Assembly: GCA_027486845.1 (NCBI GenBank) | Contig: JAIXOL010000029.1 | Span: 62,001 to 126,000 of the forward strand | From: Cytophagaceae bacterium | Lineage (GTDB): Bacteria; Bacteroidota; Bacteroidia; Cytophagales; Spirosomataceae | Length of the DNA: 64,000 nucleotides | Reading direction: 5' to 3' | In this document: positions 2,819-51,831 of the stretch, one piece after another | Layout: the number at the start of each line of letters is the position of its first letter | Numbering within the stretch: position 1 is the stretch's first letter | Position numbers and translations under genes: made by a program | The notes under the pieces: generated by a model | What the model was told of the DNA's origin: nothing | Databases searched by the model: none | What the model saw: the letters and a program-made list of their open reading frames with translations, nothing else

Positions 2819-2840
2819 TTCATTAAAATCTACGTTTAAG

Positions 2841-9500: not shown

Positions 9501-9966
9501 CGATAGTTTGTACCGCCGAAGCATGTACACGATTTGGAAACGCACAAGTCCACCTCCAATGATGCTCAATTTTGATTCACCTGACCGCAGTTCATGTACA
9601 GTTCGAAGGCAAAAAACAGCTACACCATTGCAAGCTTTAGTGACGCTTAATGACCCTCAATTTGTAGAAGCGGCAAGGGTTTTAGCAGAAAGAGTTATTA
9701 AGAAAAAAACACGTTTTGATGCACGAATACAATTCTTTTTTCAATCGGTGGTTTCAAGAAATCCTCGCCCAAATGAGTTGCAAATTCTAAAAACTTTATA
9801 TGATTCTGAATATCAAGCTTTTACTAAAGATATTAAAAGGGCAGAATCTTTGCTTGCAGTTGGTGAATTTGCAAGAGATAAGGAGCTGAATATCAGTGAA
9901 TTGGCTGCCTATACGGTTGTAGCAAATACCATTTTAAATTATGATGAAGCAATAGTAAAACGATAA
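6580..9966 (+). CDS. PSCyt1-DUF1549-LamG-DUF1553 haem c lipoprotein
   Basis: A large 1128-aa exported protein with a lipoprotein signal ending FLFWSC (Cys near 20). Residues about 45-140 are a PSCyt1 domain with CFKCHGPD near 55 and a candidate Met ligand in EVMPTP. Residues about 180-400 are DUF1549 (PSCyt2), including [18 protein letters not shown] and [20 protein letters not shown], itself a Cys-rich CxxCH motif. Residues about 490-690 look like a LamG/concanavalin jelly roll ([29 protein letters not shown]). Residues about 800-1085 are DUF1553 (PSD1), with [33 protein letters not shown], and [15 protein letters not shown]. Two CxxCH motifs mean potentially two haems. It is coupled to the membrane cytochrome in front and followed after 19 bp by the DUF1501 gene, its usual partner. 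The reaction is unknown. Confidence 0.9.
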
Positions 9967-9985
9967 TTTTAAAAATTACGAAGAA

Positions 9986-11428: not shown

Positions 11429-11455
11429 TTTTTATAAAAAACATAGAAAAATATC

Positions 11456-12775
11456 ATGCAAAATCGACGTGATTTTATTAAACAAACTGCCATCGTAGGT
11501 GCAGGAGTGCTTACTTCTTCTAATCTTTTTGCTTTTCATGGTTCACCCAATGAAAAAGTGATTTTGGGAATAATGGGAACAAATAGCCGTGGAATGTTTT
11601 TGGCAAAATCTTTTGCCAAATTACCAAATGTTGAAATTGCCTATATTTGCGACCCAGATGCAAAGGTTTTGGCAAAAACCATTGCTGAAATTGAAAAAAT
11701 GACAGGTAAAAAACCACAAGGTTTTGCCGATGTTCGCAAAATGCTGGAGAAAAAAGATTTTGATGGAATGGCTATTTCTGCTCCTGACCATTGGCATACG
11801 CCAGCGGCTATCATGGGATTGCAGGCAGGTAAAAATATTTATATTGAAAAACCATGTAGTCATAATCCCAAAGAAGGCGAAATGTTGGTTGAAGCCACCA
11901 ATAAATACAACAAATTGGTGCAAATGGGGAGTCAACGTCGCACATTCAGTAATGTAAAAGACATGATTGCAAAATTGCACAGTGGAGCAATCGGACGGGT
12001 GTATTTTGCTCGTGGATGGTATGTCAATAATCGAAAATCGATTGGAAAAGGTAATATTGCGGCAGTTCCACAAAACCTTAATTTTGATTTGTGGCAAGGT
12101 CCCGCACCTCGCCGTGAGTATAAAGATAATTTGGTACATTATAATTGGCATTGGTTTTGGAATTGGGGAACGGGCGAGGCACTGAATAATGGTACCCACG
12201 AATTAGATGTGATTCGTTGGGGTTTAGGCGTTGATTTTCCAACGCAAGTAGTTTCAGCAGGTGGTCGTTATCACTTTCAAGATGATTGGGAAACGCCTGA
12301 TACACAAACGATTACCTATAATTTTCCAAATAATATTGGATGTACTTGGGAAGGGCGTAGTTGTAATGGGTTTAACTCAGAAGGAAGTGGGAGAGGAGTG
12401 ATTTTTTATGGAGATAAAGGCACAATTACTTATACAGAAGCAAACAGTTATAAAATTTTCGATGGTGCAAATAAATTGGTTTCAGAAGTAAAAGATGATA
12501 CACCGTTCGATCCAAAGAATGCGGTTAGTCCAACCGAATTATTGGATGGGCTTCATTTAGCAAATTTTTGTGAAGCAATTCGTGGGAAAGAACAAATAAA
12601 TGCACCAATTTTGGAAGGACATAAATCAACGCTTTTGCCACAATTAGGAAACATTGCGTACCGAGTCGGTAGAACGCTTAACTGCGACCCAAGCAATGGG
12701 CATATTTTGAACGACAAAGAAGCAATGAAATTATGGTCAAGAGAATATGAGAAAGGTTGGGAAGTGAAAGTATAA
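11456..12775 (+). CDS. Gfo/Idh/MocA-family oxidoreductase with Tat signal
   Basis: A 439-aa NAD(P)-dependent sugar oxidoreductase-like protein. The Tat motif RRDFIKQTAIVGAGVLTSS starts at residue 3. The Rossmann domain begins at ILGIMGTNSRGMFLAKSF near residue 37 and includes the strand end IAYICDPDAK; SAPDHWHTPAA and the catalytic-region IYIEKPCSHNP follow near residue 130-140, matching the family EKP motif. The C-terminal alpha/beta domain includes WHWFWNWGTGEALNNGTHELD near 225-245. Exported members such as GFOR carry tightly bound NADP and work in the periplasm; that mode is likely here but inferred. It sits 27 bp after DUF1501 and is followed closely by the PQQ dehydrogenase. Confidence 0.92.
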   Translation: MQNRRDFIKQTAIVGAGVLTSSNLFAFHGSPNEKVILGIMGTNSRGMFLAKSFAKLPNVEIAYICDPDAKVLAKTIAEIEKMTGKKPQGFADVRKMLEKKDFDGMAISAPDHWHTPAAIMGLQAGKNIYIEKPCSHNPKEGEMLVEATNKYNKLVQMGSQRRTFSNVKDMIAKLHSGAIGRVYFARGWYVNNRKSIGKGNIAAVPQNLNFDLWQGPAPRREYKDNLVHYNWHWFWNWGTGEALNNGTHELDVIRWGLGVDFPTQVVSAGGRYHFQDDWETPDTQTITYNFPNNIGCTWEGRSCNGFNSEGSGRGVIFYGDKGTITYTEANSYKIFDGANKLVSEVKDDTPFDPKNAVSPTELLDGLHLANFCEAIRGKEQINAPILEGHKSTLLPQLGNIAYRVGRTLNCDPSNGHILNDKEAMKLWSREYEKGWEVKV

Positions 12776-12789
12776 ATCTATTCGAAATA

Positions 12790-14934
12790 ATGATAAAGAT
12801 GCCTCTATTGTATAAAAATTACCAAAGGAATTTAAGTTTAACTCGAATTCCTTTGGCAATTCTTGTAAGTTTGCTGTTCATTTCAAGTGCGGGAAATCCT
12901 ACATATACCGATTGGACTGCCTATAATGGCGGCAATGATTGCAACCATTTTTCAGCACTAACACAAATAAATCCTGCCAATGTTTCACAGCTAAAATTGG
13001 CTTGGGAATATGCTTCAGGCGGAGCCGATAGTGTAAAAAATACTACCCAAATTCAGTGCAATCCATTGATTATTAAGGGAGTAATGTTTGGAGTTTCAGC
13101 AGCTTCACAAGCATTTGCCATAGATGCATCTACAGGAAAAGAAATTTGGAAAACCAATTTCCAAGAAAAAACTTTCAACATGACGAGCCGAGGTGTTACT
13201 TATTGGACAGATGGAAAGGAGGCTCGTATTTTCTTTGCTTATGGAGCTTTTCTTTATGCACTAAATGCCCAAACTGGACAAGTGATTTTCTCTTTTGGAA
13301 CAAATGGAAAAATCAATTTGATTGACGGTATCAAACGACCCGGTGCAGATGAATATGTAGTGTCGAATACGCCAGCAGTTGTGTATAAAAATACCTTGAT
13401 TGTCGGTACAAGAGTTTCTGAAAGTGCCACGGCGTTGCTTGGTGATATTCGAGCTTTTGATACTCGGACGGGTCATAAAATTTGGACTTTCCATACCATT
13501 CCACGACCAAACGAATTTGGCTACGCTACTTGGGAGAAACAAAATTATCAAAATTTAGGTGGTGCAAATAATTGGATGGGCATGGCAATTGACCAAAAAC
13601 GAGGCATAGTTTATGCTCCAACAGGTTCGGCAGCCTTTGATTTTTATGGGGGAAATAGAAAAGGTGATAACTTATTTGCCAATTGTTTATTGGCATTGGA
13701 TGCAAAAACTGGTAAAAGGCTATGGCACTTTCAAACCGTCCATCACGATATTTGGGACAGAGACATTCCTGCTCCGCCTAATTTATTTACTATTATTCAA
13801 AAAGGGCAAAAAATTGATGTAGTTTCGGTTTTGAGCAAGCAAGGTTTTACATTTGTTTTTGACCGAGTTACAGGAAAACCTATTTTTCCGATTGAAGAAC
13901 GAGCTTTTCCTGCCTCTAAAATCAGTGGAGAGCAAGCATCGCCAACGCAGCCCATTCCTTTACTTCCTGAGCCATTTACTCGACAAAGTTTTACTGAAAA
14001 GGATGTTAATTCATTTGCTTCAAATCGTGATGAAATCATTGAGCAAGTCAGAAAAGCAACTACTGGACAGCCTTTTACGCCATTAGGTCAAAATCGTACT
14101 GTTTTCTTTCCAGGCACTGACGGTGGAGCCCAGTGGGGAGGAGCAGCGGTAGATGAAAATGCAATTATGTATATTCCTGCGAAAGAAAATCCAGTATACA
14201 GTTCTTTGATTGAAGCACCAAAATCTAAAGAAAATCATACTCTTTTGTCAGGGAAACAACTTTATCAGACCTATTGCCAATCTTGTCATGGAGCAAATCG
14301 AGAAGGAAATGAAGATGGAACTTATCCTTCTTTGCAAAAAATAGAAGGTAAATATTCTGAAACATCTATGCTTCAATTAATGAGCAAAGGTCGTGGCATG
14401 ATGCCTGCTTTTACCCAATTGCAAGAGGCTGAAAGTAAGGCAATTGTACAATTTTTGTTTGGGAAAAATACTGAAATTAAAACAACAAACGAATCAAAAC
14501 TTTCGAAAGTACCTTATTTGCACACGGGTTACAATCGTTGGTATGATAGCAATGGCTACCCGATAAGCACGCCGCCTTGGGGAACACTCACTGCTATTGA
14601 TATGAATACGGGCAAACGTCGTTGGCAAATTCCTTTGGGCGAATATCCAGAACTTACCGCCAAAGGAATACCCATTACAGGAACGGATAATTATGGTGGG
14701 GCTGCCATAACAGCCGGTGGCGTTTTGTTTATTGCCGCCACAAAAGACCAACAATTTAGAGCCATCGACCGACAAACTGGCAAAATTTTATGGCAAGTGG
14801 CACTTCCTGCTGCTGGCTATGCTTCGCCGAGTGTTTATGCTGTGAATGGCAAACAATATGTTGTAATTGCTTGCGGTGGTGGAAAACTAAAAACTAAATC
14901 AGGCGATAAGTATTTGGCATTTGCTTTGCCTTAA
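12790..14934 (+). CDS. PQQ-dependent dehydrogenase (quinoprotein) with inserted cytochrome c domain
   Basis: An exported quinoprotein that oxidises a sugar or alcohol and passes electrons to its own haem c. I chose ATG at 12790 (about 714 aa) because the longer frame start at 12757 lies inside the previous gene; a Met at 12799 is also possible. Propeller repeats include LAWEYASGGAD near residue 70, TGKEIWKTNF, TGHKIWTFHTIPRP, HHDIWDRDIPAPPNLF near 320 and the final TGKILWQVALPAAGYASP. A haem c motif YCQSCHGAN near residue 495, with candidate Met ligand GMMPAF, is inserted between propeller blades, as in membrane-type quinohaemoproteins with this layout. It needs PQQ, but no pqq synthesis genes are in the window. 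It is the last gene of the 5153-14934 operon. Confidence 0.9.
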   Translation: MIKMPLLYKNYQRNLSLTRIPLAILVSLLFISSAGNPTYTDWTAYNGGNDCNHFSALTQINPANVSQLKLAWEYASGGADSVKNTTQIQCNPLIIKGVMFGVSAASQAFAIDASTGKEIWKTNFQEKTFNMTSRGVTYWTDGKEARIFFAYGAFLYALNAQTGQVIFSFGTNGKINLIDGIKRPGADEYVVSNTPAVVYKNTLIVGTRVSESATALLGDIRAFDTRTGHKIWTFHTIPRPNEFGYATWEKQNYQNLGGANNWMGMAIDQKRGIVYAPTGSAAFDFYGGNRKGDNLFANCLLALDAKTGKRLWHFQTVHHDIWDRDIPAPPNLFTIIQKGQKIDVVSVLSKQGFTFVFDRVTGKPIFPIEERAFPASKISGEQASPTQPIPLLPEPFTRQSFTEKDVNSFASNRDEIIEQVRKATTGQPFTPLGQNRTVFFPGTDGGAQWGGAAVDENAIMYIPAKENPVYSSLIEAPKSKENHTLLSGKQLYQTYCQSCHGANREGNEDGTYPSLQKIEGKYSETSMLQLMSKGRGMMPAFTQLQEAESKAIVQFLFGKNTEIKTTNESKLSKVPYLHTGYNRWYDSNGYPISTPPWGTLTAIDMNTGKRRWQIPLGEYPELTAKGIPITGTDNYGGAAITAGGVLFIAATKDQQFRAIDRQTGKILWQVALPAAGYASPSVYAVNGKQYVVIACGGGKLKTKSGDKYLAFALP

Positions 14935-15571: not shown

Positions 15572-16162
15572 ATGCAAGAGTATTTGTCAAATACGGAGAA
15601 TAGAACTTGGCAAGCCTTTAAATTGGGCGATAGGAAAGCATTTGAAAAATTATTGAATCAATACTACCCTTTATTACTCAATTATGGTCAGCGGTTGATA
15701 CGTGATAATGATTTTGCCCAAGATTGTCTTCAAGATTTTTTTATCGATCTCTGGAATCATCGTGAAAATCTTGATACACCACAGTCAATAAAAGCATACC
15801 TGTTTTCCTCTTATCGTCGAGCATTGTTTAAAGAAAAAACTCGTAATTTTTGGAATCGTAACGTTATTGAACTCAACGAAGAATATGAAATAGAGGTGCA
15901 GTTTAATATCGAGACATATCTGATTAACAACGAAATCGAACATGAAACACTTTTGAAACTCAAATACTATCTTTCAACCCTCAGCAAGCGGCAAAGAGAG
16001 GCTGTATATCTAAGATTCAATCAAGAGTTGGAATATGAAGAGATTTCACAAATTATGTCAATCAACCATCATTCTGCAATAAATTTGGTTTATGAAGCCT
16101 TAAAACTATTAAGAAAAAACTGGGTGATGAGCTTCATCATCTGTTTAATAACAATACAATAA
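15572..16162 (+). CDS. ECF RNA polymerase sigma factor, FecI-like
   Basis: A 196-aa sigma-70 family ECF factor. Region 2 spans about residues 25-95: LNQYYPLLLNYGQRLIRDND, DFAQDCLQDFFIDLWNHREN and IKAYLFSSYRRALFKEK. Region 4 spans about 125-180: LKYYLSTLSKRQREAVYLRF, then YEEISQIMSINHHSAINLVY, the helix-turn-helix that reads the -35 box. It is followed after 5 bp by a FecR-type anti-sigma gene and, beyond an inserted IS66 element, by an STN-domain SusC and SusD. This is the usual trans-envelope signalling layout in which glycan binding at SusC is relayed by FecR to the sigma factor. ATG at 15572 is the only reasonable start. Confidence 0.93.
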   Translation: MQEYLSNTENRTWQAFKLGDRKAFEKLLNQYYPLLLNYGQRLIRDNDFAQDCLQDFFIDLWNHRENLDTPQSIKAYLFSSYRRALFKEKTRNFWNRNVIELNEEYEIEVQFNIETYLINNEIEHETLLKLKYYLSTLSKRQREAVYLRFNQELEYEEISQIMSINHHSAINLVYEALKLLRKNWVMSFIICLITIQ

Positions 16163-17342: not shown

Positions 17343-18778
17343 GTAACTAACCAGTTTCAGAAATAGTATAAAAATAGTGTAATAAGGCAAAAAATCAGTA
17401 CATTTATATTTATCAATGACAAAAGATTTAAAGATACAAGATTTAGAATCCAAATTGGATATGGCTTTGACCCGTATAAGCGAGTTAGAAGCCCTTGTAT
17501 TAAAATTGTCAATCCTTAAAACGAGTTCTAATAGTAGTATTTCACCTTCAACAGATTTAACTCGTAAAAACCAAAGTCTTCGAGAAAAGAGTAATAAACC
17601 AGTTGGTGGTCAGTTAGGACATAAGGGTTATGGCTTGAAAATGAGTGTAACACCAGATGTGATTCAAAGTATTTACCCCAATTTCTGCAACGTTTGTGGC
17701 AACTCCTTAACAGATTCGGATTTTGAATTGAAAATTCGTCGCCAAGTAATAGACATACCCCCTATTGTTCCTATCACGACAGAATATCAATGTTTTGGCA
17801 TAGTGTGTACTTGTGGTCATCACCAATTAGGTACTTTTCCTGAGGGTATTGATAGACCTATTCAATATGGCGAAAATATACAAACTCTTGCTGTTTATCA
17901 AAACTGTTTTCAATACTTACCTTTTGCTCGTTTACAAGATTTTTTTCAAAAAGTTTGCAATTTATCTATCAGCAAAGGTACTATCGAAAACATTATTCGC
18001 CGAACCGCACAAAAAGCCAAGCCAATTTATGAGAAACTACATCAGGTTGTAAGTATCTCATTTTTCGTAGGTTCGGACGAAACTGGTTTTAAACTTAATA
18101 CTAAAAAAGGTTGGTTCTGGGTATGGCAGACCGCCATTGTTACTTATATTGTTGCTGCGTGTTCTCGTTCAAAAGCTGTAATTAATGAAACCTTTCCCGA
18201 GGGATTACCTAATTCTATTCTTTGTTCTGACCGTTTAGCAGCCCAATTATCTACTATCAGTAAAGGTACTCAAATTTGCTTGGCTCATTTGCTCAGAGAT
18301 TTGAATTATCTAAGTTCAGCAGAACAAACTTTTTGGGCAAGTGATTTTAAGACTTTACTTAAAGATGCCATTGCACTCAAACAACAGCAATCGGCTTACA
18401 GTAAAAGTGACACCAAAGCCTTAGAAATTCAACAAAGACTTGACAAATTACTTGACGACAAACTTTTAGATGAATTACTAAAAAATCAAGTCAAGTATAA
18501 ACAGACTATTACTTTTTTTCGAGGTATGACCAAACTTAGATACGCTTTATTCCCTTTTCTTTACGACAAAAGAATACCTTTCGATAACAACTCTTCAGAA
18601 AGAGCTATTCGTATGATAAAGGTCAAACTAAAAGTATCAGGACAGTTCAAATCGCTACATCAAGAATTTGCAATTATTCGTTCTGTGATTGGCACAGCTA
18701 TCAAAAATAATCAATCTGTATTCCATGCTATAAAAGCTGTGGTAAATATGCCGTTGCCAATTATTACTGGATAGTTAC
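17343..18778. mobile_element. Complete IS66-family insertion sequence, 1436 bp
   Basis: The left terminal repeat is GTAACTAACCAGT (17343-17355) and the right one ACTGGATAGTTAC (18766-18778); they match as inverted repeats at 12 of 13 positions and start with the GTAA typical of IS66. A perfect 8-bp duplication AGAAAAAA flanks the element. It carries a single transposase gene, with no separate TnpA/TnpB genes, and the transposase stop codon lies inside the right repeat. It sits between fecR and the STN-type susC, about 130 bp before the susC start. Intact repeats, intact gene and identical duplications indicate a recent insertion. Confidence 0.93.
17416..18774 (+). CDS. IS66-family transposase (TnpC-type)
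   Basis: A 452-aa DDE transposase. The N-terminus has a short coiled-coil leucine zipper (IQDLESKLDMALTRISELEA). It is followed by the characteristic KTSSNSSISPSTD segment near residue 35-50, a Cys-rich zinc-finger region (NFCNVCGNS) near 93, and the DDE domain. Catalytic candidates are Asp in FFVGSDETGF near residue 219, Asp in ILCSDRLAAQ near 272 and Glu in FDNNSSERAIRMIKVKLKVS near 395. All three are present and there is no frameshift, so it is probably active. It is the only gene in the element. Confidence 0.93.
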   Translation: MTKDLKIQDLESKLDMALTRISELEALVLKLSILKTSSNSSISPSTDLTRKNQSLREKSNKPVGGQLGHKGYGLKMSVTPDVIQSIYPNFCNVCGNSLTDSDFELKIRRQVIDIPPIVPITTEYQCFGIVCTCGHHQLGTFPEGIDRPIQYGENIQTLAVYQNCFQYLPFARLQDFFQKVCNLSISKGTIENIIRRTAQKAKPIYEKLHQVVSISFFVGSDETGFKLNTKKGWFWVWQTAIVTYIVAACSRSKAVINETFPEGLPNSILCSDRLAAQLSTISKGTQICLAHLLRDLNYLSSAEQTFWASDFKTLLKDAIALKQQQSAYSKSDTKALEIQQRLDKLLDDKLLDELLKNQVKYKQTITFFRGMTKLRYALFPFLYDKRIPFDNNSSERAIRMIKVKLKVSGQFKSLHQEFAIIRSVIGTAIKNNQSVFHAIKAVVNMPLPIITG

Positions 18779-25314: not shown

Positions 25315-25368
25315 TAATCTAAAAATTAACGGGAAAAACACCATTTGATAGCGTTTCGTATATAAAAT
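25315..25368 (+). promoter_or_regulatory. Conserved 54-bp upstream block, copy 1
   Basis: TAATCTAAAAATTAACGGGA at 25315-25334, then 16 bp, GCGTTTC at 25351-25357, 3 bp, TATAAAAT at 25361-25368, ending 19 bp before the ATG. The same three elements with the same spacing occur at 41623-41676 before the paralogous beta-helix gene. It is probably promoter plus operator; which factor binds is unknown. The rest of the 304-bp gap before it holds the GH88 terminator and otherwise no gene. Confidence 0.65.
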
Positions 25369-25387: not shown

Positions 25388-26767
25388 ATGAAAAACAGTC
25401 TCAAATTGACATTTATTGGATTCTTTCTATGTACATCGCTTTTTGGGTGTGACCAAAAAGAAGTTGGTAATATTACCGTTATTACTCCTCAACCTCCAAT
25501 CACAACTTCAATAAGTAAAAGCTATTACGTATCTGATGGAACAGGGTCTGATGCAAATAATGGATTATCAATTTCTTCGCCATTAAAAACAATAACAGCG
25601 GGTCAAAATTTAGCAGCTCCGGGCGATACTGTTTTTATCATGAATGGTAACTATCTTCCCAATACAACAATTCAACTTAATAAATCGGGTAGTGAAGGAA
25701 AGTACATTACTTACAAAGCCTATAAAGGTCATTCCCCAAAATTCTCTTTTTTAGGGGCTTTTTGGAATGCCGTTTCTATCAATGCCTCATATATTGTAGT
25801 GGATGGAATTGAATTTCAAGGCAATAATCAAAATTTGACATATAATGATGCCTTAGCTTCATATAATGATAAACTGGCAGGTGGTAATAACAATAGTTTG
25901 TATGCCACTTATAATATGAATGGTATTAGCATTGGCGGCCCAGCAGCTGAATCAAAATTTCCGCACCATATTATCATTCGAAATTGCAAAGTACACGATT
26001 TTCCTGGTGGCGGATTGAGTTCAATTCAAGCGGATTATACAACTTTTGAAGGAAATACTGTCTATAATAATGCATGGTATATGATGTATGGTGGAAGCGG
26101 AATCAGCATTTTAACACCCTTTGATAGTGACTCAAATACTGGATATAAAAACATTGTTCGCAACAATATTTGCTACAATAACAAAACAACCATTCCCTGG
26201 ATTAGTCAACAAAGGTTGAGCGATGGAAATGGTATTATCATTGACGTAAATCTGCGTCCTTATAATTCAACTGCTACCGACAAACCTTACAAAGGTCGAA
26301 CGTTGGTCGAGAACAATATAAGTTTTTATAACGGTGGTTCGGGGATTCACGCATTTGATGCTGCACACATTGATATTATCAATAATACTGCCTATAATAA
26401 TGCCCAAATCATGCTGACATATGCCGATATTTTTGCCAATACCTGCAATGATGTAAAAATCATGAACAATATTATTTATACCAAAACTGGCGGAAATTGT
26501 AATTCTAATAATAAAAATACCAACGTAACATACGACTATAATATCTATTTTGTAGGAAAAGTAGCGATAAAAGGGCCAAACGATAAAGTGCTTGACCCAC
26601 AGTTTGTTAATATTTCTACCGATGGTACGTTAGCCAATTTCGCTGTAAAAGTGGGTAGTCCAGCCATAGATGCAGGTACGAAAAGTATTTTTTCACCCAA
26701 AGATATCAAAGGTGTTGCTCGTCCAAAAGGGGCTTCAGTTGATTGTGGAGCGTACGAAGTTCAATAA
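25388..26767 (+). CDS. Right-handed parallel beta-helix lipoprotein (pectate lyase/PL9-like fold)
   Basis: A 459-aa surface or outer-membrane lipoprotein. The lipobox LFGC places Cys near residue 21, followed by the acidic-charged stretch DQKEVG, similar to Bacteroidota lipoprotein surface-export signals. The domain opens with YYVSDGTGSDANNGLSISSP and GDTVFIMNGNY (residues about 48-95), typical of DUF1565/PL9-type beta-helix enzymes. Helix-turn repeats follow (IIIRNCKVHDFPGG, TFEGNTVYNNAWYMMYGGSG, IINNTAYNNA). The end PAIDAG...DIKGVARPKGASVDCGAYE is the usual cap of this group. Whether it is a lyase or hydrolase is not proven. It has a close paralogue at 41698-43302 with T9SS export instead, and it heads a long operon. 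Confidence 0.88.
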   Translation: MKNSLKLTFIGFFLCTSLFGCDQKEVGNITVITPQPPITTSISKSYYVSDGTGSDANNGLSISSPLKTITAGQNLAAPGDTVFIMNGNYLPNTTIQLNKSGSEGKYITYKAYKGHSPKFSFLGAFWNAVSINASYIVVDGIEFQGNNQNLTYNDALASYNDKLAGGNNNSLYATYNMNGISIGGPAAESKFPHHIIIRNCKVHDFPGGGLSSIQADYTTFEGNTVYNNAWYMMYGGSGISILTPFDSDSNTGYKNIVRNNICYNNKTTIPWISQQRLSDGNGIIIDVNLRPYNSTATDKPYKGRTLVENNISFYNGGSGIHAFDAAHIDIINNTAYNNAQIMLTYADIFANTCNDVKIMNNIIYTKTGGNCNSNNKNTNVTYDYNIYFVGKVAIKGPNDKVLDPQFVNISTDGTLANFAVKVGSPAIDAGTKSIFSPKDIKGVARPKGASVDCGAYEVQ

Positions 26768-26784
26768 TATTTAGAAATAATCTT

Positions 26785-28065
26785 ATGAAACGCAGAAAAT
26801 TCATTGAACAAACAAGCCTATTTTCGGCAAGTTTATTATTCACCTCATTTATTACAAAAGCTACTAAAAAACCAAATCCAACGATTTTATTGGTTTCGGG
26901 TTGGCAAGATGTAAACATCGGTGATATTGGACACACACCAGGATTACTCCATGTTTTAGAAACTTTTATTCCGAAGGCAACGGTGATTTTATGGAAAAAA
27001 AGCAAAGGTCAAGAAGTAAAGAAATTACTAAACAAAAATTTCCCAAAAGTAAAAATTATTTACGGTACCGTAGATAGTAATAAAGATTTAGAAAATCCTG
27101 AAATTATAGACGCATTTACAAAAGCTGATTTGATGGTTCACGGTTCGGGTCCACTTTTGGTAGGTGCAGATAACTTGGCATGTTGGATGAAACATACGAC
27201 CAAACCTTTTGGTGTGTATGGCACAACACTCGAAAATCCGAGCAAATATCACCAAGAAATTTTGCAAAAAGCAGCCTTTATCTATACCCGCGAAACCAAG
27301 TCCATCGAACACTTAAAAAAGGTCGGAATTACAGGTAATCATGTACAATTTGCTCCCGATGCTACCTTTTTTATGAATATTCGTGATGATGAAAAAGGAA
27401 ATGCGTTTTTGAAAGCAAACGGTTTGGAAGATAATAAATTCATTTGTGCCGTTCCTCGTTTACGCTACACGCCATATCATAAATTCAACCCAAACAACAA
27501 TGGCTGGAATACTGAAAAAATAAAACAGGTAGAAGAAACAAACGAGAGATACAAAGAAATTGACCATGCCAAACTTCGTGAAGCAATGATTGCATGGGTA
27601 CGTGAAACGGGAAATAAGGTATTGATTTGTCCAGAAATGACCTATGCCGTTGATATAATGGACGAACTACTTATAAATCCCCTACCAGAAGACGTAAAAC
27701 CGTTTGTTATAAAACGGGGTTATTGGCTGCCCGATGAAGCCGCTTCTATTTATGCCAAGGCTCACACTGTTTTGAGTTTTGAATGTCATTCTCCAATCAT
27801 TGCTGCGGCAAACCGAACACCCTGCTTTTATTTACGCCAACCAGAAGATACCATTAAAGGACAGATGTATTATGATTTAGATTTTAATGATTGGGTTTTT
27901 GAAATAGATAAAACAACGGGCACACAAATTGCCGACCGCTTGCGTGAAGTCTGGAAAGACCATGACAAAGCAAAAGCAAAACTGAAATCAAGAATGGATA
28001 AAGTTGAAAATATTTATAAGGATAGAACAGCATTTTTACACAATATTTTGGTTAAAAAATCTTAA
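26785..28065 (+). CDS. Polysaccharide pyruvyl transferase family protein with Tat-like signal
   Basis: About 426 aa from ATG 26785; a longer in-frame start at 26743 lies inside the previous gene. The N-terminus KRRKFIEQTSLFSASLLFTS is a twin-arginine-like signal. The body matches the polysaccharide pyruvyl transferase fold (a GT-B-like two-domain fold): WQDVNIGDIGHTPGLL near residue 42, DLMVHGSGPLLVGADNLACW near 116, PFGVYGTTLENPS, VQFAPDATFFMN and, in the second domain, YAKAHTVLSFECHSPIIAAA near 330. Classical members add pyruvate ketals to exopolysaccharides in the cytoplasm. Export of this one would be unusual and suggests another job within the degradation operon. It is followed by ROK, EamA and SIS genes. 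Confidence 0.75.
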   Translation: MKRRKFIEQTSLFSASLLFTSFITKATKKPNPTILLVSGWQDVNIGDIGHTPGLLHVLETFIPKATVILWKKSKGQEVKKLLNKNFPKVKIIYGTVDSNKDLENPEIIDAFTKADLMVHGSGPLLVGADNLACWMKHTTKPFGVYGTTLENPSKYHQEILQKAAFIYTRETKSIEHLKKVGITGNHVQFAPDATFFMNIRDDEKGNAFLKANGLEDNKFICAVPRLRYTPYHKFNPNNNGWNTEKIKQVEETNERYKEIDHAKLREAMIAWVRETGNKVLICPEMTYAVDIMDELLINPLPEDVKPFVIKRGYWLPDEAASIYAKAHTVLSFECHSPIIAAANRTPCFYLRQPEDTIKGQMYYDLDFNDWVFEIDKTTGTQIADRLREVWKDHDKAKAKLKSRMDKVENIYKDRTAFLHNILVKKS

Positions 28066-28070
28066 AAACC

Positions 28071-29024
28071 TTGAAAAAACTCGTCATCGGTATTGATATA
28101 GGAGGGACTCGAACCAAAATTGGTTTGGTAGATTTAACTTTGGGTAAAGTGCTTGAAACGGTTATTTATCCAACTGAATCTAAAAATGTCACTAATTTTG
28201 AACAAAAAATAGGTGAAACTATCCAGTATTTTCAAGCAAAAATTACCGAAAATCAAATAATTTTGGGCGTTGGTATTGGTGTTTCAAGTTTTGTTTTTGA
28301 AGACGGAACGGTAGATTCTACCTATGGATTCATGGATTTTATGGAAGATTATTCATTAGCCGAAATCATTGAAAAAGCTTATAACTTGCCTTGCAAAATA
28401 GATAACGATGCTCGCTTGGTAGCCTTGGGCGAGGCACATTATGGTCAAGGAAAAGGTTTTGAAAGAGTTTTAGTTTTAACACTCGGAACGGGTTTAGGCT
28501 TGGGTTTTGTAGTCAACCAAAAACTTAATGAAAAATTACCATTTGGTCACATGGGTGGACATATCAGTATTACTCAAAATGGTGAAAAATGTTATTGTGG
28601 AAAAATTGGCTGTCTGGAATCACTTGTTTCTGCCACAGGTATTTTGAAAGCAGCTCAAAAGCTCAAATGGCACGAGAAAAATCTAAATTTACCTTTTACA
28701 GTTGAAAGCATATTCTACGCAAGCGAGTCGGGCAATAAAGAGGCAATGTTGATTATTAATGATTTTTTGGAATACCTAAAAATTGGCATTTCGAACTATA
28801 TCAACCTTTATGCTCCCGATAGGATTATTTTGGGAGGAGGCGTTGCCAAAGGGCTTAAAATATATTTGCCAATTTTACAAGAAATCACGCAATTAGGGCC
28901 TTTTAAAGCCTATAAAACAAGTATCGAAATTTCAGAACTCGAAGAAAATTCTGGCATTTTAGGTAGTGCCGCACTATTTAATAACATAATTAAAACTCCT
29001 CCATTGGGGGTTAAGGTGCTATGA
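28071..29024 (+). CDS. ROK-family sugar kinase
   Basis: A 317-aa cytoplasmic kinase of the ROK family. It starts with TTG at 28071, since no ATG fits the N-terminus. The phosphate-binding motif VIGIDIGGTRTKIGLVD is at residues 4-20; the catalytic Asp lies in CKIDNDARLVALGEA near 110; TLGTGLGLGFV near 140 is the second phosphate loop. The zinc site is GHMGGHIS...CYCGKIGCLES near 160-184, with His and three Cys. There is no N-terminal helix-turn-helix, so it is an enzyme and not a ROK repressor. It overlaps the EamA transporter by 4 bp. The substrate is probably a hexose or N-acyl hexosamine released by the operon enzymes (inference). Confidence 0.92.
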   Translation: MKKLVIGIDIGGTRTKIGLVDLTLGKVLETVIYPTESKNVTNFEQKIGETIQYFQAKITENQIILGVGIGVSSFVFEDGTVDSTYGFMDFMEDYSLAEIIEKAYNLPCKIDNDARLVALGEAHYGQGKGFERVLVLTLGTGLGLGFVVNQKLNEKLPFGHMGGHISITQNGEKCYCGKIGCLESLVSATGILKAAQKLKWHEKNLNLPFTVESIFYASESGNKEAMLIINDFLEYLKIGISNYINLYAPDRIILGGGVAKGLKIYLPILQEITQLGPFKAYKTSIEISELEENSGILGSAALFNNIIKTPPLGVKVL

Positions 29025-29908
29025 AAACAAACGCATGGATATATTATTCGATTGCTGCAGCTCTTTTTTGGGGAGTCTGGGGCGTTGTAGCAAAACTGAT
29101 TTCTGAAGATGTAAATTCTTATGCCAACCACGTTTTGTTTACTGTCGGGATGTTGTTTACGCTTCCTTTCGTATTGGGAAAAATTAGAAAAGAAAAACCC
29201 ATTCGGAAGGGGGTTATTTGGGGCATTGTTTCAGGAATATTGGCTGTGACGGGCAATGTAGCAGTTTTTAAAGCCTTTTCAAGTGGTGGTTTAGCAGCAA
29301 TTGTCATTCCTCTTACTAATTTATATCCTTTAGTTACTATCGGAATTGCCCTTTTGGTATTTAAAGAAAAATTGAATTGGCTGAATGGCATTGGTATTTT
29401 GTTAGCAATTCCTGCGGTTATAATGCTTTCGGGACAATCCTTATTGTTTGATAATCCCGCTGATTTTATCAAAAATATTGGACTTAATTCTTGGTTGATT
29501 TTCTCTTTTCTTGCATTATTTTTCTGGGGTGTTTTTAGTGCTGCCCAAAAAATTACAACTAATTATATTTCTGCCGAATGGGCATACCTTGCATTTATCG
29601 TTTCGTGCTTATTTATTTCAGTGGGTTTTATTGCTATAGGTAAGGTTAGTTTTGATTTTTCTCAAAAAACGCTTTTACTCGGTTCGCTCGCAGGAATGCT
29701 AAACGGACTCGGTGTTTTATGCAGTTTTGCTGCTTACAAAGCCGAAGGCAAAGCCTCACAAGTAACTACCATTGCTGGTGCTTTGCAACCAGTTTTTACG
29801 ATTGTTTTAGCGATTGCTTTTTTGTCCGAAAAGATTACATATATCGAAATAATAGGTATTTTTATTTCCATTTTGGCGGCTTTAGCATTGTCTTATGAAA
29901 AGAAATAA
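29021..29908 (+). CDS. EamA/DMT-superfamily sugar or metabolite transporter
   Basis: A 295-aa inner membrane protein with about ten transmembrane helices in two EamA repeats. Repeat 1 runs from YYSIAAALFWGVWGVVAKLI to LSGQSLLF (about 5-145). Repeat 2 runs from WLIFSFLALFFWGVFSAAQK to the C-terminus (about 155-290). The segment GGLAAIVIPLTNLYPLVTIG near 88-107 is the usual EamA helix 3-4 motif. It is coupled to the ROK kinase (ATGA overlap) and followed by a SIS isomerase, so it probably imports the sugar that the kinase phosphorylates. The substrate is inferred from context only. Confidence 0.88.
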   Translation: MKTNAWIYYSIAAALFWGVWGVVAKLISEDVNSYANHVLFTVGMLFTLPFVLGKIRKEKPIRKGVIWGIVSGILAVTGNVAVFKAFSSGGLAAIVIPLTNLYPLVTIGIALLVFKEKLNWLNGIGILLAIPAVIMLSGQSLLFDNPADFIKNIGLNSWLIFSFLALFFWGVFSAAQKITTNYISAEWAYLAFIVSCLFISVGFIAIGKVSFDFSQKTLLLGSLAGMLNGLGVLCSFAAYKAEGKASQVTTIAGALQPVFTIVLAIAFLSEKITYIEIIGIFISILAALALSYEKK

Positions 29909-29938
29909 TTGCCTATAATCATGTAAATTATACGAAAA

Positions 29939-30859
29939 ATGAATAAAATTTTAGCAGAAATCTTAGAAATTCCCGAACGAGCAACAGCCGTTTTAGATTC
30001 ACCGATTAAAAAACTACCATTAAATGTGCCTTATTTGGGCATGGGATCATCTTATTTTGCTCCTTTGGCTTTCAAATATATGGGTTTAGATATTCAGCCA
30101 GAAATTGCCTCTGAATACTTTAATTATTTATCTTTTGAAAACAAAAAACCTTTAGGTGTCATACTTTCTCAGTCGGGAAAAAGTAGCGAGGCACTTTGGT
30201 GTACGCAACTTTTTGAGCAATACATCGCCATTTCAAACTATCCTGAAAATGAATTGAGTAACCTTGAAAATGTGTTGGATGCGGTGCCAATGATGGCAGG
30301 AGAAGAACATTTCTCTTCTTCAAAAACGTTTATAAATACCCTTTTGGTGCTTTTTCGTGGTTTTGGATTTGACCCAAGTCGTGCAATAGATTTATTAATC
30401 AAAAAAATGGGTGAGTATGAAGTCAAAGGAAAAAAACTGGCTGATGAGGTTTTTGATCTTTTACAGACTAAAAAAATTCATGGCATTTATATAACAGGAA
30501 GTGGTCCAAATGTGGCTACTGCCATGGAAGCGGCTTTAATTATGAGCGAGAGTACGAAGCTCAGTTTTCAAGGCTTGGCAATGGCACAATATGATCATGG
30601 CCCAAAAGAAACCGCAGAAAATAGCATCCTAATTCAGGTTCTTGCAAAAGGAAAATCCTATGAAAGAAGCTTAAATCTTACTGAAAAAGTAAAAACGTTT
30701 GGAGCTACTGTTTTCACGGTGGAAGAGGCTGATGCCGAAGAGCATTTTTCGATTTTGCATAACATTGTAACTTTCAATTTTTTTGCATATTATCTTTCGC
30801 AAAATCTAGCGATTACAGAAATGTTTGCAGTTGGGGGTAAAATTACTGAGGTAGAATAA
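29939..30859 (+). CDS. SIS-domain sugar isomerase/deaminase-like protein
   Basis: A 306-aa protein with two SIS (sugar isomerase) domains, like the isomerase half of GlmS or AgaS-type proteins. SIS 1 includes VPYLGMGSSYFAPLAFKYMG near residue 30 and PLGVILSQSGKSSEALWC near 73, the phosphosugar-binding SQSGxSxE motif. SIS 2 includes HGIYITGSGPNVATAMEAAL near 180, followed by SESTKLSFQGLAMAQYDHGP near 203. Its place after a ROK kinase and a transporter suggests it acts on the phosphorylated sugar, probably an amino sugar or ketose-6-phosphate. No glutaminase domain is present. Exact reaction unknown. Confidence 0.87.
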   Translation: MNKILAEILEIPERATAVLDSPIKKLPLNVPYLGMGSSYFAPLAFKYMGLDIQPEIASEYFNYLSFENKKPLGVILSQSGKSSEALWCTQLFEQYIAISNYPENELSNLENVLDAVPMMAGEEHFSSSKTFINTLLVLFRGFGFDPSRAIDLLIKKMGEYEVKGKKLADEVFDLLQTKKIHGIYITGSGPNVATAMEAALIMSESTKLSFQGLAMAQYDHGPKETAENSILIQVLAKGKSYERSLNLTEKVKTFGATVFTVEEADAEEHFSILHNIVTFNFFAYYLSQNLAITEMFAVGGKITEVE

Positions 30860-30951
30860 TTTAATTTTTTATTTTGAACATCGATTTACATGGTTATTTA
30901 TTTCCAAAATAACATGCATTATATTTCAGGTAAATATTAAAAATAATAAAA

Positions 30952-31746
30952 ATGGTTGATTATCAGGCGAAAAAAATAAACACTTCTATCAAAATTGATG
31001 GTGATGTAAATAAAGACGTATGGAAAAATGCCTTTTGGAGTAAACGTTTTGTGGATATGGTAACTGGTGAGGCTGGTATGTATAATACCCAAACAGCCAT
31101 ACTTTGGAATGACACACACCTGTATATTGCCTTTTTAGCCGAAGAACCTTTTGTTGAAGCTCAGCTAACCGAAAGAGACAGTATTATTTTCTTAGAGAAT
31201 GATTTGGAGTTGTTTATTGATGGGGGTGATTGCTATTATGAATTGGAAATCAATGCATTAAATACCATTTACGAGGTTTTTTTTATTTGGAAAGATGCTT
31301 ACACCAAAGGAAGTAAATTCGACATACCAGCATTTGATGTACATCAGTCGCAGTCATATACCTTTGGGGGCGATTATGACAGAACTGGAGCTTCATTTTG
31401 GAAAGGAACGCATCCAAGAGGGGTACGATGGGCTTTTACTAACTTTGATATGGAAGGTTTGCAAACGGCAGTAAAGGTTGATGGTAGTCTTAATGATAAT
31501 TCAGATATAGACAAAGGATGGAGTCTCGAAATTGCAATTCCTTGGAATAGTTTAATCCTGCTTGCCAATGGCAGAAATCTTCCCCCCCAAAACACGGATG
31601 TTTGGAATATGTTTTTAGGTCGATTTCAAAAGTTAATGTTAAATGGCAAAGAAATACAACCTCACCCAGCTACTGCACTCAATAGTCATGAAATTTATGA
31701 TACACATTTGCCAGAAAAATGGAGTAAGGTTGAATTTGTATTGTAA
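30952..31746 (+). CDS. CBM9-like carbohydrate-binding protein, no signal peptide
   Basis: A 264-aa protein resembling family 9 carbohydrate-binding modules and DOMON-like sandwiches. Hallmarks are KIDGDVNKDVWKNAFWS near residue 18, TQTAILWNDTHLYIAFLAEE near 48, NDLELFIDGGDCYYELEINA near 83, and GWSLEIAIPWNSLILLA near 186. The start MVDYQAKKINTS has no export signal and I found no better upstream start in the 92-bp gap. That is odd for a carbohydrate-binding protein, though stand-alone members of this kind occur in Bacteroidota. It sits between the SIS and GH38-like genes in the same orientation. Confidence 0.85.
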   Translation: MVDYQAKKINTSIKIDGDVNKDVWKNAFWSKRFVDMVTGEAGMYNTQTAILWNDTHLYIAFLAEEPFVEAQLTERDSIIFLENDLELFIDGGDCYYELEINALNTIYEVFFIWKDAYTKGSKFDIPAFDVHQSQSYTFGGDYDRTGASFWKGTHPRGVRWAFTNFDMEGLQTAVKVDGSLNDNSDIDKGWSLEIAIPWNSLILLANGRNLPPQNTDVWNMFLGRFQKLMLNGKEIQPHPATALNSHEIYDTHLPEKWSKVEFVL

Positions 31747-31779
31747 CATCAAATTTTTTGAAAATTTCCAACCAATAAA

Positions 31780-34371
31780 ATGAAAATAACTTTAACGCTC
31801 ACTTTACTGTTTTTGTGTAGCCTTTGTATCGCTCAACAAAGACGCTTGTATATCGCCAACGACGACCACACAGATTATATGTGGACGGCCAATGAAGCAA
31901 AATATGACTCTGCGTTTGCACAGATGTTGGATTTTTATTTGCACCAAATTGATTCTACTGCCCTGCAACCTGGTAAAAATAACGCACCTGATTTTCAAGC
32001 AAGATTTAATTGCGATGGAAGTGCTTGGTTAAAGGCATATCAAAAATATCGTTCATCCGCACAATTTAATCGTTTAATTTCAGCTATAAAATCGGGACAT
32101 ATTAGTAGTCCGCTGAATAGTTTGGTAAGCACTTACGGGGCACAGCCAACCGAGGCGGTTTTGCGAGGAATGTTTTATGCAGGAAGTTTAGAACGTGCTT
32201 ATAACCTGCGATTTACCCTAGCTCAGTCGATGGAAAACAATACGATTCCACTAGGTTTAGCATCGCTTTGGGCGGGTTCGGGCGTGAAATATAGTTACAA
32301 AGGCATCGGTGGATATGGCAGTCAAATGACTTATGAATATCGTGAAAATCGAAGAAAACAATTGTATCACTACACAGGTTTAGACGGTTCAAGTGTACTT
32401 ACAAAATGGTACGATTACAACGAAAAACGCAATCCTGCCTTTGGTGGTTATGCTGAATGTCGATTGTATCCTAAGAAAAGACCCGTTAGCCAAACCGTTG
32501 AAATTGAACAAGTTATAGATAAATTAGATGCTTATACCAGCACAAAAACCTATCCTTTCAATATTGCCGCAGCATTTGGTTATGGTTGGGACGACCTTTC
32601 AACTTTTGTCTCAAATCCATTTATTGAGGCAGCTAAAAACAAAACCAATGAAACCCGCAAAGTTCGAGTTTCTAATGAAGTGGACTTTTTTGAAGATGTA
32701 GAAAAAACGTATAAAAATCTTCCATCAGAATCCCTGAGTTATGGCAACGAATGGGATATTTATTGTGCTTCAATGAACGAAACTACTGCAAAAGTGCGTC
32801 GTTCAGTGGAAAAATTACGGGTTGCAGAAGGACTTGCTTCAATTGTTTCTTTAAAGAATAAACAATTTGGTTCAAATTTGACTGAATCTAAACTAAAGGC
32901 GTGGGAATCACTTGGCTTTTATTGGGAACACAATTGGACAGCCGATGGCCCAGTGAGCAGAAATATTCGAGCAAATTGGCAGGATAAACTAGAAAATAAT
33001 TTGACCAATTATGTTGATTCTTTACTTTTACTTTCCTCTAATGAATTAGGGAAACAACTCAAAAAAGCTAAAAATCCACGGTTTTATGTTTTTAATCCTT
33101 TGAGTTGGACTCGAAATGATGTAGCAGATATTGCTTATGATGGCGATTTTCCCGTGAAAGTGATTGATGTTTCTTCCAAGCAAGAAGTTACTAATCAACT
33201 GATTACGAAAGGAAATAAGAGATATTTGAGAATTTGGGCGACAAATTTGCCATCGGTTGGCTATAAAGTTTTTGAAATTCATAACGGTTCGCCAAAGATT
33301 TTTTCTAACGAACTTTCAGCATCGGGTAATCAGATTTCAAACCAATTCTACAAAATAAAAATCAGTCCGTCAGGAGCAATTACTGAAATTATCGACAAGA
33401 AAGCCAAAAACAAACAATTGGTTTTGGATGGAAAATCTTTGAATGATTTGGGCATAAAAAACCTGCAAGAAGGCACATTGATGGTAGAAAATGTAGGTTC
33501 TGTTTCGGTAACATTAAAAGCCGTTTCCCAAGACCCAATTTTGCATACGGTACGTATTACCTTATTTGCTAATAACCCAAGAATTTTGCTTGAAGACAGT
33601 ATTCAAGCCAATTTTAAGGACGTAAAAACTTGGGATTTTGCATTTAACCTAATAAACCAAACGACCCGTCATGAAGAAGTTGGGGCGATTTTAACAGCTA
33701 AGTCAGAAAAACGAGGAGGACATTATTCTTCCCAACAAGCCCGACTCGATTGGCAAACCTTTAATCATTTTGCTGATATGAGCGAAGCTAATTATGGCGT
33801 AACACTCTCAAATCAAGATTGTAGTTTTTTCAAATTAGGTGACAGCAAAGTTGATTCTTTACACGAAAATTCAACAGAATTGCACGTTTTGGCGGGCGGA
33901 CAAGTTGATAAAAAATTAGAGGATAAAGGTATGATGGGCATTTTTAACCAAAATGGACAGCAATCGTTTTTTTATAATTTTGCTTTAACTACTCATAAAG
34001 CTTTTGATGCTACTGAAGCCATGAAGTTTTCTATGGAACACCAAAATCCTTTGACAACGGGCTGGATTGAAGGAAAAAATGGAGATAACCAAAATAAATT
34101 TTCACTACTTTCTGTGAGCGACCCAAATGTTTTGCTTTGGAGTGTAAAACCTGCGGAAGAGGGCATTGAAAATGGCCTAATCACTCGCTTTTGGAATTTT
34201 AATGCAAAACCTGTAAGCCCAATCTTAAAACTTTCAAAACCCATAAAAACTGCATGGCAAACAACGCATATTGAAACCAATGAGCAAAAGTTAAAGCCTT
34301 TAAACGGTATTTTGAAGGCAAATTTTAATCAGTTTCAAATGAAGACATTTCGCTTGAATATCAATAATTAG
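31780..34371 (+). CDS. GH38-like (alpha-mannosidase-type) glycoside hydrolase, exported
   Basis: An 863-aa protein with a signal peptide (about 1-18, ending CIAQ). The catalytic domain begins with ANDDHTDYMWTANEAKYDSA near residue 26; the HxD pair is in the position of the first zinc ligands of GH38 (HxD in the N-terminal strand). Later GH38-like features are FNCDGSAWLKAYQKY near 72, ALWAGSGVKY-type ASLWAGSGVKYSYKG near 160, a three-helix bundle region, and a beta-sandwich C-terminal half (FYVFNPLSWTRNDVADIAYD near 428 onward). Where typical members have Asp in an M-D-x-x-G-x-T segment before the AGVKY strand, this one reads MENNTIP, so the usual nucleophile may be replaced. Substrate and even activity are uncertain. 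Confidence 0.75.
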   Translation: MKITLTLTLLFLCSLCIAQQRRLYIANDDHTDYMWTANEAKYDSAFAQMLDFYLHQIDSTALQPGKNNAPDFQARFNCDGSAWLKAYQKYRSSAQFNRLISAIKSGHISSPLNSLVSTYGAQPTEAVLRGMFYAGSLERAYNLRFTLAQSMENNTIPLGLASLWAGSGVKYSYKGIGGYGSQMTYEYRENRRKQLYHYTGLDGSSVLTKWYDYNEKRNPAFGGYAECRLYPKKRPVSQTVEIEQVIDKLDAYTSTKTYPFNIAAAFGYGWDDLSTFVSNPFIEAAKNKTNETRKVRVSNEVDFFEDVEKTYKNLPSESLSYGNEWDIYCASMNETTAKVRRSVEKLRVAEGLASIVSLKNKQFGSNLTESKLKAWESLGFYWEHNWTADGPVSRNIRANWQDKLENNLTNYVDSLLLLSSNELGKQLKKAKNPRFYVFNPLSWTRNDVADIAYDGDFPVKVIDVSSKQEVTNQLITKGNKRYLRIWATNLPSVGYKVFEIHNGSPKIFSNELSASGNQISNQFYKIKISPSGAITEIIDKKAKNKQLVLDGKSLNDLGIKNLQEGTLMVENVGSVSVTLKAVSQDPILHTVRITLFANNPRILLEDSIQANFKDVKTWDFAFNLINQTTRHEEVGAILTAKSEKRGGHYSSQQARLDWQTFNHFADMSEANYGVTLSNQDCSFFKLGDSKVDSLHENSTELHVLAGGQVDKKLEDKGMMGIFNQNGQQSFFYNFALTTHKAFDATEAMKFSMEHQNPLTTGWIEGKNGDNQNKFSLLSVSDPNVLLWSVKPAEEGIENGLITRFWNFNAKPVSPILKLSKPIKTAWQTTHIETNEQKLKPLNGILKANFNQFQMKTFRLNINN

Positions 34372-34473
34372 CTAATAAAATGATACATAAATTTGCTTTA
34401 TTGCTGATTTAACATTCAAGATTATTTGCGAATAATGATAAAATAGCCACGCTAAATTTACCAAAATAAATCA

Positions 34474-35241
34474 ATGAAACAGCTCAAAAAAATTATTTTT
34501 TTATTCATTTTATGCTTAAACATAAAACTTAAAGCACAAGACGTTTTGATTGTTGCCGATGAAATACCAGCAATGGAGGCATTAGCTAAAGCATTTAAAA
34601 ATGCTGAAAATTTGGACTGTAAAATTGTTAAACAAGCCGATATGCCCACTTCATTGACTAATTATAAGGCAGTTATCGTGTATATTCACAAAGAATTGTT
34701 TCCTGAAGCCGAAGAGAAATTCATTAGCTATACCAAAAATGGGGGTCGCTTGATTTGCTTGCACCATACTATCAGCACTTTCAAGAAGCCCAATAAAGAT
34801 TGGCTAACTTTTATGGGAGTTGAGTTACCTAAAAAAGATGTAAAAGAAGGGGGTTATAAATACGTGGGAAACATCAATATGGAGGTTGTAAACTTAGCTC
34901 CTAAGCATTTTATAACGACCAATAAAATATCATATCCGACTAAAATAGCTTACAAAAGAGAAGGGCAAACAAAGGAGAAAAAGCTCGCTGGCTTTGAGTT
35001 GCCAAATACCGAAGCCTATGTCAATCAGAATAATTTAAGTCCACGCACTATCTTAATGGGACTTCGTTTCAAAGATAAATCAGACCAAATTTGGATGCAA
35101 GACCGAGCAGTTTGGTATATGCCCGTAGAAAATGGATGGCTTTTTTATAGCCAACCTGGGCATGCTATAAGTGATTTTGAAAATCAAGTTTATACCCGAA
35201 TTATAATAAATGCTGTACAGTATTTATTAAGATTAAAATGA
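34474..35241 (+). CDS. ThuA-like domain protein, exported
   Basis: A 255-aa protein of the ThuA/trehalose-utilisation family, which has a class I glutamine amidotransferase-like fold. The signal peptide is about 1-22 (ending KLKAQ). The fold shows in VLIVADEIPAMEALAKAFKN near residue 23, YKAVIVYIHKELFP near 66, and the elbow-like strand GGRLICLHHTISTF near 89. ...GWLFYSQPGHAISDFENQVY near 225 is the GHxxxxF... motif typical of ThuA domains. It is the last gene of the operon that begins at 25388, after the GH38-like enzyme. ThuA proteins are common in periplasmic sugar-oxidation gene sets; their reaction is mostly unknown. Confidence 0.88.
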   Translation: MKQLKKIIFLFILCLNIKLKAQDVLIVADEIPAMEALAKAFKNAENLDCKIVKQADMPTSLTNYKAVIVYIHKELFPEAEEKFISYTKNGGRLICLHHTISTFKKPNKDWLTFMGVELPKKDVKEGGYKYVGNINMEVVNLAPKHFITTNKISYPTKIAYKREGQTKEKKLAGFELPNTEAYVNQNNLSPRTILMGLRFKDKSDQIWMQDRAVWYMPVENGWLFYSQPGHAISDFENQVYTRIIINAVQYLLRLK

Positions 35242-44808: not shown

Positions 44809-44818
44809 AAATGTACCT

Positions 44819-46990: not shown

Positions 46991-47018
46991 AACTTTGCTT
47001 TAAATGTAAACCATAAAT

Positions 47019-47993: not shown

Positions 47994-47999
47994 AAAACT

Positions 48000-49451: not shown

Positions 49452-49457
49452 TTTTAT

Positions 49458-50923: not shown

Positions 50924-50962
50924 ATAGCTAAACTAAAATTAATTATTTTAATAAAATCAATC

Positions 50963-51826: not shown

Positions 51827-51831
51827 TCCTT

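Follow-up and report, generated by a model that had tools for sequence, protein, structure and literature searches.

A promoter block shared by two beta-helix operons of a Cytophagaceae bacterium is probably read by a FecR-linked ECF sigma factor

Glycan loci of Bacteroidota encode many ECF sigma factors, few of whose promoters are known. For Bacteroides thetaiotaomicron, the relevant part of a 2013 reconstruction describes ECF promoter prediction as challenging and in need of start-site data (PMC3878776), a transcriptome paper of 2020 states where it deals with these factors that no motif was known for any ECF of this species (PMC7366714), and a 2025 study brought the first candidate ECF motifs (PMC12596196). 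The same study, in its sections on SigW-1, describes a distant ECF sigma factor that acts on part of PUL59, is placed in family ECF251 and has a motif that failed the authors' own significance test, and it reports TGTT near the −10 position in Bacteroides ECF regulons (PMC12596196). In Flavobacterium psychrophilum a CGT box at −10 has been taken as a sign of ECF promoters (PMC9723704), and an AAC in the −35 element has been given as a rule for ECF-type promoters (PMC8103513). The account of rshA in Corynebacterium glutamicum describes a promoter that serves only the anti-sigma gene and is driven by the sigma factor, with a proposed role in quick shut-off (PMC3489674).

The DNA analysed here is a window of 64,000 nucleotides (positions 62001–126000 of contig C30), and it carries twice a block that we take to be a promoter under the control of a single ECF sigma factor, ECF2, whose gene lies ~7 kb to the left of the window; from sequence comparison we place the probability of this reading at roughly 0.82. 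The original prediction had described a three-part block with identical spacing at window positions 25315–25368 and 41623–41676, and both the coordinates and the spacing were borne out. The first copy consists of an A-rich stretch, TAATCTAAAAATT (25315–25327), a −35-like AACGGGA (25328–25334), a −10-like GCGTTTC (25351–25357) and a third box, TATAAAAT (25361–25368). In the second copy the A-rich stretch (41623–41635), delimited by comparison of the two sites, shares its first 12 positions with TAATCTAAAAATT, and it is followed by AACGGGA (41636–41642), GCGTTTC with a following AC (41659–41665) and an identical third box (41669–41676). All of these lie on the forward strand, as do the genes that follow. 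The first block precedes bhA (25388–26767), which encodes a right-handed beta-helix protein of 459 aa with PF13229 above the cut-off and a choice-of-anchor Q domain. The second precedes bhB (41698–43302), encoding a beta-helix protein of 534 aa with a type IX secretion tail (PF18962), for which PF13229 falls just below the cut-off (25.8 vs 25.9). A probable operon extends from bhA to 35241, with genes at 26743–35241 for a pyruvyl transferase-like protein, a ROK protein, an EamA protein, a SIS-like protein (below cut-off), an unknown protein, a GH38-like protein and ThuA; another probably extends from bhB to 53892, with genes at 43312–53892 for GH28, an FGE-sulfatase domain, four proteins without a hit, a TIM-barrel and a melibiase-like protein. 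Downstream of it, at 56253–56585, lies a MazF/PemK-like toxin gene (ORFs of at least 80 aa were considered).

The block is unusual in the genome and its boxes are more constrained than their surroundings. Across 5.36 Mb the pattern AACGGGA-N14-18-GCGTTTC-N2-4-TATAAAAT matches the bhA and bhB places only, a 39-base version allowing up to three mismatches reveals no third full copy, and none of 100 dinucleotide shuffles of the 64-kb window contained a match. In register, the two sites agree at 19/20 bases of box 1, 7/7 of GCGTTTC and 8/8 of TATAAAAT, compared with 8/16 in the spacer between the boxes, which had been predicted to be the less conserved part. In the 300 bases preceding the block, agreement is 4–12 per 20-base step, and the best 54-base ungapped match between the two 300-base upstream regions is 42, against a mean of 31.4 and a maximum of 37 for 300 first-order Markov controls. 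The boxes thus agree while the flanks are at chance, and recent duplication of the upstream region as a whole was rejected as the explanation, the two regions being alike in the block only. Further core copies, the absence of which would have spoken against the original prediction, are present in the same genome at two other genes, FecR2 and SusC2. Comparison with Emticicia sp. EMPMRC01, the nearest named relative among the fetched loci (97% in bhA), supports the predicted selection on the boxes: boxes 1 and 2 have 0/27 changes at both sites, while the flanks differ at 39/347 positions for bhA and 10/85 for bhB. The spacer at bhA has 2/16 changes and the third box 1/8; at bhB the whole block is unchanged.

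Only two of the three predicted parts stood up as an element. TATAAAAT is kept only in Emticicia and in genome G137, was not seen at the equivalent place in genome G169, Runella, locus L055 or the FecR/SusC sites described below, and was rejected as part of the element for this lack of general conservation; it probably lies at or near the transcription start and is not a recognition box. The A-rich stretch upstream of the −35 is possibly UP-like, and at the other promoters of the motif A-richness is its only general property.

The core of boxes 1 and 2 points to a candidate sigma factor. AACGGGAWA-N15-YGTTT has exactly four matches in 5.36 Mb, all on the forward strand of C30, before FecR2 (55363), SusC2 (56429), bhA (87328) and bhB (103636), while its reversed-pattern control has none in the source genome. 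The first two belong to a cluster left of the window (G000:C30:54731–61797), in which ECF2 (C30:54731–55351), whose only domains are sigma regions 2 and 4 (PF04542; PF08281/PF04545/PF07638), is directly adjoined by the gene of a FecR-type anti-sigma, FecR2 (C30:55401–56387; FecR, PF04773, and FecR_C, PF16344). A SusC/SusD importer is also adjacent, comprising SusC2 (C30:56501–59986; TIGR04056) and SusD2, a SusD-like frame that follows SusC2 and is matched by SusD2 orthologues elsewhere. AACGGGA-N17-YGTTT stands in the gap before FecR2 and again in the gap before SusC2, and ECF2 lies ~32–48 kb upstream of the bhA and bhB promoters. A second pair, SusC0/SusD0, follows SusC2-SusD2 on the forward strand (window positions 11–4571; SusC0 begins before the window).

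The motif follows a clade of ECF sigma factors to which ECF2 belongs. Searching 222 genomes of the family with ECF2 gave 39 with a match at E ≤1e-35, 23 of which form a clear upper group (E ≤6e-68; next 4e-44); in 241 genomes of the order, only the source genome and one other of the family match at E ≤1e-55. At 20 of these 23 clade loci the motif comes after the sigma gene and ahead of FecR, SusC or both, and it is shared among loci of seven genera. It is absent from 19 other ECF loci (best 8.9), including those of ECF1 and ECF3 on the same contig, 18 of the 19 being usable as L209 is almost without downstream sequence. On a tree of the ECF sigma factors the motif label needs 2 changes, against 14.3 in shuffles (0/500 as low). 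The three exceptions in the clade (L190, L196 and L197) have no motif in the 1.4 kb scanned downstream, and the gene order that follows their sigma genes is different. Loci of Dyadobacter-like genomes have further core copies directly after an ECF sigma gene. Genomes of the clade also tend to carry beta-helix relatives (15/23 vs 11/199; Fisher 3e-11, uncorrected for kinship). In G230 and likewise in G187, three ECF2-like genes are found within ~33 kb (L226, L227, L232, L233), and in G187 one of them stands immediately before a GH28/beta-helix run headed by the motif.

The weight matrix used in these comparisons was built from FecR/SusC promoters of other species, 31 places being reduced to 27 by merging four identical ones; L187 and L191 were left out for spacing misfit or too many mismatches, and L184 and L198 because the FecR place was not found. 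Its sites were first picked by a pattern derived from bhA and bhB and share one spacing by construction; the fair tests are leave-one-out, free-gap and beta-helix-only comparisons. With all like sites removed, 20/23 clade loci score 23.6 to 40.2, compared with a best of 8.3 among 17 outside loci and 9.3 among reversed controls of 40 loci. When the gap was left free (6 to 23), the distance from CGGGAAA to YGTTT was 15 in 26 of 28 clade pairs, the others being 14 and 22, and no such pair occurred outside the clade or in reversed sequence. A matrix made from five beta-helix promoters, containing no FecR/SusC site and excluding L016, L015 and L021, has its best match at the FecR/SusC motif site in 19/23 clade loci; 12/23 exceed the best of the 17 outside loci (4.1), the best reversed control within the clade reaches 4.4, and this matrix separates by place more than by score.

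The 27-site consensus reads AAA(A/G)(A/C/G)CGGGAAAA, ~13 weakly conserved bases and C(T/C)GTTTnAC, and GGGA of the −35-like element is invariant except for one base. ECF-type promoters have a near-fixed spacing of ~15–17 between their boxes. We take GGGAAA to align with the GGAAC position of the ECF −35; in the consensus ACGGGAAAA AAC itself does not occur at that place, a departure from the textbook −35. YGTTT begins with C in 12/27 sites and with T in 15/27, so that CGT proper occurs in under half. GGGAAA would then be the −35 and YGTTT the −10, an assignment supported by CGT/TGTT −10 elements described in sections of published work on Bacteroidota (PMC9723704, PMC12596196).

Within the source genome the four sites fit this profile unequally. 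On C30 the matrix ranks SusC2 (34.4), FecR2 (29.9) and bhB (16.5) ahead of the next place (12.8). Searched against the whole genome, a profile model, R1 (26 of the 27 sites, a near-copy from L182 being excluded), places FecR2 first (8.5e-5), SusC2 second (1.5e-4) and bhB third (E 0.25), the last by a small margin (14.3 bits vs 13.3 for the next). The bhA site scores 5.3, below at least 16 places on C30, three of them the other sites, and is not among the 12 whole-genome matches of model R1. This poor fit is due to its −10, which lacks the A and C usually found 3′ of YGTTTN, each present in 26/27 sites; bhA is counted as a probable target because its core is exact and conserved and because it resembles bhB. 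Mere counts of the pattern are less informative: the exact core has 91 matches in the 222 family genomes vs 79 for its reversed control, which indicates that the signal elsewhere lies in place and not in number, and a 3-mismatch pattern discriminates little in 16 genomes (331 vs 275 reversed). Exact AACGGGA-N15-17-GCGTTTC occurs in 9/98 genomes, the source genome included.

Relatives of the beta-helix genes were fetched as 51 loci from named genomes, and 26 of the 222 family genomes have a match. AACGGGA and GYGTTTC, with 16 bases between, stand just before the beta-helix gene in L015, L021 (EMPMRC01), G137 (L067), G169 (L075) and L055; the Runella counterpart (L016) has AACGTGA in place of AACGGGA, and many other beta-helix orthologues have no such pair just before the gene. 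In the 51 loci, four of the six matrix matches of at least 14 directly precede a beta-helix gene, namely L019 (20.4, Spirosoma fluviale), L055 (20.2), L016 (16.5) and L021 (16.5), and most loci have no such site. This recurrence of the core before some orthologous genes in other genera supports, at the sequence level, the suggestion that the two operons may be co-controlled. The contig of L055 is filed as an alphaproteobacterial MAG; its upstream region at the beta-helix locus nearly equals that of Runella L016, and it is probably misbinned. Further beta-helix relatives, with 39–47% identity, occur in cyanobacteria (Nostoc and others) and Paenibacillus, and the ten listed genomes of the same genus contain none at E ≤1e-60; the genes appear to be mobile or often lost.

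A profile scan of 13 regions of ECF2 genomes places the motif at the head of operons in G230 (30.4), G232 (30.8) and G187 (38.9) that include a beta-helix gene, a GH28 gene or both; in G169 it precedes bhB (23.8). Two lower-scoring sites, before ThuA in G169 (19.2) and before a beta-helix gene in G187 (14.8), hardly rise above chance-like matches, which reach 19.0. Altogether 51 matches of at least 11 comprise 24 before FecR/SusC, 6 before the operons and genes just named and 21 others, which are taken as chance, although one of these (19.0, G254) lies ~0.5 kb before a beta-helix gene. In G230 a motif and a bhA homologue are separated by homologues of PSD1 and DUF1501. In the window itself, PSCyt, DUF1549/1553, DUF1501, Gfo/Idh and PQQ genes of a type best known from Planctomycetes follow one another (5153–14934) between two SusC/SusD sets.

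The alternative that survives best also sees an ECF promoter in the block but assigns bhA, and possibly bhB, to a different sigma factor, for instance ECF1, and hence to a signal other than that of SusC2. bhA lies just after an ECF1-FecR1-SusC1-SusD1-GH88 cluster, its −10 departs from the ECF2 consensus, and a similar site persists in Runella, where no ECF2 orthologue is found. Against this, ECF1 (15572–16162, forward strand) falls outside the ECF2 clade, no motif is found near FecR1 or SusC1 (best 2.5) or at ECF3 (−6.4), bhB fits the ECF2 model better than all places but FecR2 and SusC2, and four genomes (G142, G176, G177 and G179) have a bhB orthologue behind SusC2-SusD2-SusC0-SusD0 and in the same orientation. 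ECF1 was thus rejected as regulator of bhB and is not the likely regulator of the block, and we consider control by another sigma factor unlikely. The best ECF2 match in Runella (G058) is 37% identical, with no motif at that ECF, and its site before the beta-helix gene (16.5) has CGTGA for CGGGA; G137 (89% complete) has no ECF2 orthologue (best match 29%). The sites in these two genomes are either read by another sigma factor or remnants. An IS66-type insertion (17343–18778; transposase ORF 17416–18774), absent in EMPMRC01, lies between FecR1 and SusC1, leaving 139 bases before SusC1, and may uncouple ECF1 signalling from SusC1.

Less probable still is an operator through which a DNA-binding regulator, such as a LacI, AraC or response-regulator protein, would act on an ordinary housekeeping promoter. 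An inverted repeat, AAACG-N20-CGTTT, would suit a dimeric regulator and is present at bhB, G137, G169, Runella and FecR2, and the ROK protein of the window could in principle be a repressor. The repeat is absent at bhA and SusC2 and occurs in only 2/27 FecR/SusC sites of other species, on which count a palindromic operator was rejected. In addition, the 150 bases before bhA or bhB contain no TAnnTTTG, the −7 box of the housekeeping sigma-ABfr, a Pfam scan of 43 window proteins (5 without match) gives a clear regulator domain only for ECF1 and FecR1, and the motif follows an ECF sigma clade and adjoins its genes. Of the single unknown regulator originally proposed, shared control is therefore retained, with a promoter for an ECF sigma factor as its most likely form in place of an operator. 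That the block is merely a relic of the bhA/bhB duplication is very improbable: the proteins are 61% identical over 426 positions and the whole block with TATAAAAT occurs only at these two genes, but the boxes agree between chance-level flanks and the core also precedes the unrelated FecR2 and SusC2 and beta-helix genes of other genera.

The reading of the block as an ECF2 promoter suggests a mechanism for the control of these operons. The core stands before FecR2, SusC2, bhB and bhA, and the motif tracks the ECF2 clade with a nearly fixed spacing. Of the 23 clade loci, 17 have it within 170 bases downstream of the sigma gene and ahead of FecR, and 17 have it 170–1480 bases downstream of that gene, where SusC begins; upstream of the sigma gene, 22 loci have complete sequence over 500 bases and none of them shows it there (best 3.9), so that the sigma factor would raise its own inhibitor and the importer, and not itself. 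We propose that a glycan engages SusC2 and that the signal passes via FecR2. No STN domain is matched in SusC2 at 1e-3, with ~155 residues ahead of its first matched domain, and SusC1 has one. ECF2, once freed, would bind RNA polymerase and recognise the motif, with transcription starting from ACGGGAWA (−35) and YGTTTnA(C) (−10), presumably near 25363 and 41671 for the two operons. The anti-sigma, the importer and both beta-helix operons would rise together, the sigma factor making its own inhibitor but not itself. Judging by the GH28, GH88, GH38-like and GH116 genes, the substrate may be an acidic glycan of plant or microbial origin. On a broader view, to which we give slightly better than even odds, a single ECF sigma factor would govern a glycan superlocus of several operons, with its own promoter code and one-sided wiring, towards anti-sigma and importer and not itself; operons would become targets either through a copy of the promoter or through a position behind SusC2.

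If this is correct, several distant sets of glycan-use genes would be switched on together, and comparisons of this kind could decipher the promoter codes of many FecR-linked ECF sigma factors in Bacteroidota. Sequence alone has here yielded a promoter code together with its probable sigma factor and four candidate targets, so that the regulon can be tested directly. The code was not found in print in the open-licence literature, where Emticicia and ECF sigma factors were not found together.

The arrangement resembles the ECF/FecR/SusC-SusD signalling described for B. thetaiotaomicron, where sigma, anti-sigma and importer genes also stand in a row and release of the sigma factor by a glycan has been proposed; it differs from what is set out in those sections in that the target promoter can be named from sequence and also precedes two operons 32–48 kb away, and in that the anti-sigma gene has its own copy and the sigma gene none within 500 bases (PMC3878776). 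As with SigW-1, as portrayed in the passages on that factor, an ECF sigma factor would act on glycan genes away from its own locus, with TGTT at about −10; SigW-1 is placed in family ECF251, and the likeness noted here is one of features (PMC12596196). The SM6 promoters of F. psychrophilum, whose genes include type IX secretion components, differ from the block in that the part of the paper describing them mentions no ACGGGA −35 (PMC9723704). The proposed wiring resembles that reported for SigH/RshA of C. glutamicum, in which the anti-sigma gene likewise has its own sigma-read promoter, there in a stress response and not in glycan use (PMC3489674).
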